A stretch of 64,000 bases of DNA from an uncultured Pelagibacteraceae bacterium. GTDB lineage: Bacteria; Pseudomonadota; Alphaproteobacteria; Pelagibacterales; AG-422-B15. Position 1 is the stretch's first letter. The number at the start of each line of letters is the position of its first letter. The position numbers and the translations under genes were made by a program. The stretch is taken from contig CACNCV010000001.1 of NCBI GenBank assembly GCA_902619105.1, positions 332,706-396,705 of the forward strand. The letters run 5' to 3'. The notes under the pieces are model-generated. The model worked only from the letters and a program-made list of their open reading frames with translations. It was not told the DNA's origin and made no database searches. This document shows, one piece after another, positions 49,740 to 49,777 of this stretch.

Positions 49740-49777
49740 GATTCAAAATAGAATCGAGGTCAATGATATTTAGAATC
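49740..49777. promoter_or_regulatory. Cluster of three GANTC sites upstream of ccrM
   Basis: GATTC at 49740-49744, GAATC at 49751-49755 and GAATC at 49773-49777 lie in the 69-bp gap between rnhB and ccrM. GANTC is the CcrM target, so hemimethylation of these sites could control ccrM expression, as shown for ccrM in Caulobacter. Confidence 0.55.

Follow-up and report, generated by a model that had tools for sequence, protein, structure and literature searches.

In Caulobacter, the transcription start sites that have a GANTC sequence between -10 and -35 group together and share one cell-cycle profile (PMC4287350). The promoter ctrA P1 carries GANTC at about -28 (PMC4287350) and is a target of GcrA, its activation being linked to the hemimethylated state that follows passage of the replication fork (PMC4287350, PMC8116508). 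GcrA binds region 2 of the sigma factor and opens methylated promoters (PMC7403470), and its binding is strengthened by methylation in several alphaproteobacteria (PMC3667746). An extended GcrA motif, YGAKTCK, has been described, with no strong extended motif for the Brevundimonas protein (PMC7987155). Methylation sites upstream of cell-cycle genes have been counted before, without a conclusion (PMC2877005), GANTC upstream of ctrA has been surveyed by order (PMC8116508), and measurements in marine Pelagibacter have shown GANTC in methylated form (PMC9516812).

The promoter considered here drives ccrM, the gene for the GANTC methylase, and lies in a 64-kb stretch of DNA from an uncultured Pelagibacteraceae bacterium (the whole of which is called the window). 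Like ctrA P1 it has GANTC between -10 and -35, the middle of its three sites (site 2) falling near -28 if, as is assumed, transcription starts about 7 nt past the -10 hexamer. Unlike ctrA P1 it has three GANTC sites instead of one, and the gene that it would control is the methylase, which would close a loop. Conserved promoter GANTC sites are also found at Caulobacter ftsZ, mipZ and ftsN, where they are read by a methylation-dependent system (PMC3708114, PMC3885167), but none of these genes is ccrM, their sites are fewer and their activity is raised by methylation. The ccrM promoters of Caulobacter and rhizobia serve the same cell-cycle-regulated methylase but are driven by CtrA (PMC2877005, PMC4433202), which in S. 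meliloti both binds and activates the promoter (PMC4433202). The named rhizobial ccrM loci have TAACCATAA-type motifs and, unlike the window, none has the GANTC register described below. Finally, the gcrA promoter of A. tumefaciens is likewise GANTC-dense and belongs to an epigenetic gene of the cell cycle; there, methylation represses (PMC11514494), and the gene controlled is gcrA, whereas here it is ccrM.

The ccrM locus

In the window, ccrM and rnhB lie on the minus strand, the rnhB stop at 49797 and the ccrM start at 49727 leaving a spacer of 69 bp (Table 1). Further upstream, beyond rnhB, is a gene for a family-4 uracil-DNA glycosylase, and mutY is convergent with ccrM. The window CcrM matches model NF050803 over its full length (E 7e-185) with 613.8 bits, below the curated cut-off of 830 bits that was set on Caulobacter-type proteins, the model being named for Caulobacter CcrM. 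Its best solved relative is CcrMI (6pbd; residues 14-365), and this full-length match, together with the rnhB synteny, argues for orthology; among 75 named alphaproteobacterial loci, 39 have rnhB 5' of ccrM. Methylation of GANTC by this protein is predicted, indirectly, from the full-length CcrMI match and from the depletion of GANTC in the window. Phage-borne relatives are distant, at 24-33% identity for the greater part of the length, with short fragments reaching 47%. Two irregular genes were encountered among the genomes: a second CcrM-like methyltransferase, 46% identical and with one internal stop (G002:C27:6546-7334), and a ccrM interrupted by several stops or a shift of frame, which may be an assembly error (G022:C6:7293-8388).

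Table 1. Features of the ccrM locus, in positions of the window
Feature	Position	Strand	Evidence or motif
ccrM, GANTC adenine-N6 methyltransferase, 365 aa	48630..49727	-	ORF; NCBIfam model; solved-structure match
-10 hexamer CATATT	49735..49740	-	promoter scan; fully or almost invariant across 43 family copies
GANTC site 3: GAATC on ccrM strand, offset +19, last base inside -10	49740..49744	-	core YGAKTC only
GANTC site 2: GATTC on ccrM strand, offset +8, in the -35/-10 spacer	49751..49755	-	full YGAKTCK match (CGATTCT)
-35 hexamer TTGACC	49758..49763	-	promoter scan; TTGAC invariant in 43 family copies
GANTC site 1: GATTC on ccrM strand, offset -14, upstream of -35	49773..49777	-	full YGAKTCK match (TGATTCT)
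rnhB (RNase HII), 5' neighbour of ccrM	49797..50411	-	ORF; NCBIfam ribonuclease HII

Read on the ccrM strand, the spacer is GATTC-N9-TTGACC-TC-GATTC-TATTTT-GAATC-ATATTACTGACC-ATG. It contains a predicted sigma-70-type promoter, TTGACC-17-CATATT, with 9/12 matches in a promoter scan that by itself says little, because shuffles yield 4.1 promoter-like sites per region. With each site's offset measured to its start, the first T of TTGACC being the origin, one GANTC precedes the -35 hexamer, one lies between the two hexamers and one touches the -10, the final base of site 3 being the first base of CATATT. The sequence-only reading had placed three GANTC within 38 bp of the 69-bp spacer, and its coordinates and forward-strand letters (GATTC, GAATC and GAATC, in ascending order of position) are exact. 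A start about 7 nt past CATATT would put the 5' end of the ccrM mRNA at or beside the annotated ATG, giving a leaderless message; alternatively, translation may begin at the in-frame ATG at 49703 (window 49703-49740). In the family copy L134 the first ccrM ATG is replaced by GTA, and the following AAATCGGTC is kept.

GANTC is depleted in the window, with 121 occurrences where dinucleotide shuffles give 216 (sd 14; ratio 0.56). The observed density of about one per 529 bp is thus lower than the one per roughly 250-400 bp that had been taken as the chance rate. Depletion of GANTC is already published for CcrM-bearing alphaproteobacteria. The 69-bp spacer would be expected to hold 0.13 sites at the observed density (P(>=3) 3.4e-4) and 0.23 at the shuffle rate (P(>=3) 1.8e-3), values that refer to the rnhB-ccrM spacer alone, a triple somewhere in 64 kb being not very unlikely. 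The ccrM spacer holds the only GANTC triple within 60 bp anywhere in the window, and no other spacer there is as dense in GANTC. By itself a triple in 64 kb is no more than a moderate surprise; it is conservation that decides.

Conservation within the family

The family alignment comprises 43 ccrM upstream copies (23 distinct sequences) from four genera. TTGAC is invariant, and sites 1 and 3 are present in every copy, the former as GATTC or GAGTC at -14/-15 and the latter as GAATC at +19. Site 2 is found in 36 of the 43, as GATTC, GAATC or GAGTC, at +8 or, shifted by 1 nt in L120/L121, at +9; it is missing from seven copies (L115 and L138-L143), namely L115, L143 and all five copies of genus g3. 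The substitutions and the shift at site 2 preserve GANTC, which argues for selection on the methylation site and not on a fixed sequence. Two genomes represent another family of the same order, and the GANTC layout occurs in one (G259) and not in the other (G150).

Within the window's own genome, the pattern TTGACN{3,4}GANTCN{5,6}GANTC has a single match, the ccrM promoter. A looser pattern, TTGACN{9,14}GANTC, is not enriched in this genome (23 occurrences against 48 for the control), and a large regulon of the loose type is therefore unsupported there. The only other ccrM-like offset in the genome, L167 (TTGACCTGTAATTGATTTTGATTC), was rejected: it lies at the end of an opposite-strand SDR-type frame and not at a promoter.

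Conservation across the Alphaproteobacteria

When 240 evenly drawn alphaproteobacterial genomes were searched blind with the stricter pattern, 75 places matched, against 11 for the reversed pattern used as control. Mapped to ccrM positions, 38 of these lie on the same strand, 13-143 bp upstream of ccrM, and a 39th (L186) was found by tblastn, giving at least 39 ccrM-upstream matches in 26 families. The naive binomial P for the association with ccrM, 1e-148, ignores relatedness; the spread over 26 families is independent of it. About 36 matches are away from any listed ccrM, again against 11 for the reversed control (examples are L180, L184, L185, L193, L195, L199, L200 and L206), and some of these may be other GcrA-type promoters.

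The register itself can be followed without the pattern. At the named loci with rnhB upstream, the 180 bp preceding ccrM contain 28 TTGAC, of which 14 are followed by GANTC at +19, where 0.08 would be expected from the other TTGAC in the same loci. A class-wide sample of 140 regions was formed by the window and 139 ccrM upstream regions, these being the best-scoring ccrM genes of the draw, with a slight lean to window-like CcrM sequences. In the last 200 bp before ccrM, GANTC occurs 453 times, the highest count among 24 pentamers of the same structure, the next reaching 127. Its offsets peak at +8/+9 and at exactly +19, with a further peak at -15; a GANTC at +19 accompanies 59 of the 141 TTGAC upstream of ccrM. 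Of the 140 regions, 81 have two or more of the register sites, and 43 have all three. The other 59 have fewer than two, so that about 40% of the sampled ccrM genes lack the layout or have it only in part. In L022, L051 and L063 (SAR116 record), and in G150, the TTGAC-type sequence is kept and no GANTC is in register, which suggests lineage-specific loss of the register.

The sequence-only reading had seen here an autoregulatory cluster retained in a reduced genome. The cluster has indeed been kept: orthologous spacers share it, and it is a specific feature of the ccrM promoter. It is on these grounds that an autoregulatory role is most likely; its occurrence in 26 alphaproteobacterial families means that it is not a peculiarity of reduced genomes. 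In the literature searched, subscription papers being mostly outside that search, no account was found of ccrM promoters with GANTC in a fixed register.

GcrA and CtrA

Both CcrM and GcrA are encoded in the window's own genome. The latter (PF07750; G000:C3:201954-202370) aligns to Caulobacter GcrA in its N-terminal DNA-binding and C-terminal sigma-binding stretches, and 39 of 53 family genomes, a set with many incomplete members, encode GcrA. Sites 1 and 2 match the full extended GcrA motif and site 3 its core (Table 1). Class-wide, 65 of 67 sites at +19 fit the core YGAKTC on one strand, against about half expected by chance, and 18 of 67 fit the full motif. The fit to the core is due in part to the A after the site, which is shared with the -10 hexamer; this does not account for the preference for A or C at the N of these sites. 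At the three clearly oriented family gcrA loci (L147, L148 and L151) there is no GANTC upstream of gcrA, unlike at the gcrA promoter of A. tumefaciens.

A CtrA ortholog was not found in 17 family genomes, nine of them at least 90% complete, with Caulobacter CtrA as the query; the best family matches were OmpR-type response regulators at no more than 33% identity. We read the TAACCATAA motif, from the published CtrA consensus, as a candidate CtrA site. Motifs of this type are absent from the rnhB-ccrM spacer of the window and precede ccrM in 24 of the 75 named loci, mostly in Rhizobiales, 23 of the 24 being without rnhB upstream. None of these 24 has the GANTC layout, while among the remaining 51 loci at least two register sites occur in 20 and a single site in five. 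In the 75-locus sample, then, GANTC-register and TAACCATAA-type ccrM promoters are mutually exclusive. The proposed parallel with Caulobacter, in which GANTC sites in the ccrM promoter tie its expression to replication, is a loose one: the Caulobacter gene is activated by CtrA, of which no ortholog was found in the family genomes searched, and the sites here lie within the core promoter, at set distances from its two hexamers, as in GcrA-controlled promoters such as ctrA P1.

Proposed mechanism and alternatives

Comparison across genomes indicates that a ccrM promoter bearing CcrM sites, under selection and widely shared across the class, is real, and the architecture and conservation of its GANTC sites strongly suggest a function for them. 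It is likely that CcrM regulates its own synthesis by methylating this DNA. The reading that we prefer, at a probability of roughly two in three, is that the three sites are part of the ccrM core promoter. The promoter would be of the GcrA/sigma-70 kind; its methylation state would be reset as the replication fork passes and would gate ccrM expression, so that CcrM feeds back on itself. Sigma-70 RNA polymerase would recognise TTGACC and CATATT, and GcrA, which partners sigma-70 and reads m6A in GANTC, would act through the sites above the -35, between the -35 and the -10, and at the -10. Passage of the fork would convert a fully methylated ccrM promoter to the hemimethylated form, changing the output of GcrA and polymerase, until newly made CcrM re-methylated the promoter and ended the hemimethylated state. 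In this way CcrM synthesis would be coupled to replication, and also to the activity of CcrM, with no part played by CtrA. Methylation of the three sites, the action of GcrA at them and the regulatory sign are inferred. Known promoters differ in sign, since ctrA P1 fires when hemimethylated (PMC8116508) and ftsZ is strongest when fully methylated (PMC3708114). By analogy with ctrA P1, a promoter that is on when hemimethylated and lower when fully methylated is somewhat favoured over one that is on when fully methylated.

The same sites could also serve a direct negative feedback in which full methylation of sites in and beside the -35 and -10 would hinder binding or opening by sigma-70 polymerase, ccrM being on only when its promoter is un- or hemimethylated. 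That the sites touch or flank both hexamers would suit such a block, and GcrA need not be involved, because the A. tumefaciens gcrA promoter, with six GANTC upstream, is less active when methylated even in E. coli, where GcrA is absent (PMC11514494). GcrA is nevertheless co-conserved, and the 65 of 67 class-wide +19 sites that fit its core motif speak for its participation, although the A that follows them is also needed by the -10; we consider direct feedback unlikely. Some methyltransferases repress their own genes, and CcrM might similarly bind the cluster as a methylation-independent repressor, the sites being CcrM targets that overlap the promoter. The family scan revealed no added DNA-binding repressor domain, however, and a steric block would not demand the exact class-wide register at +19, which together make repression of this kind very improbable.

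Only slightly less improbable is that the sites are bystanders, either in a promoter conserved for other reasons or as a product of the general excess of intergenic GANTC, which is more than 1.5-fold in CcrM-bearing orders (PMC3973325). The excess seen here, however, is position-exact and concentrated at ccrM, site 2 stays GANTC through substitutions and a shift, and the window's own genome has the pattern only at ccrM.

Concluding remarks

In the standard picture of the alphaproteobacterial cell cycle, it is CtrA that switches ccrM on. A streamlined marine lineage in which no CtrA ortholog was found, together with many other families, keeps a ccrM promoter built on CcrM sites. If the GcrA-dependent promoter proposed above works as inferred, it would constitute a minimal replication-coupled epigenetic feedback loop and would bear on which cell-cycle wiring came first. 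We suggest, tentatively and at a little under even odds, that ccrM timed to replication by itself, through three in-register GANTC sites and GcrA and without CtrA, is a widespread and probably ancestral circuit. The ccrM promoters that CtrA drives in rhizobia and Caulobacter, on which the textbook circuit is based, would then have replaced it later.
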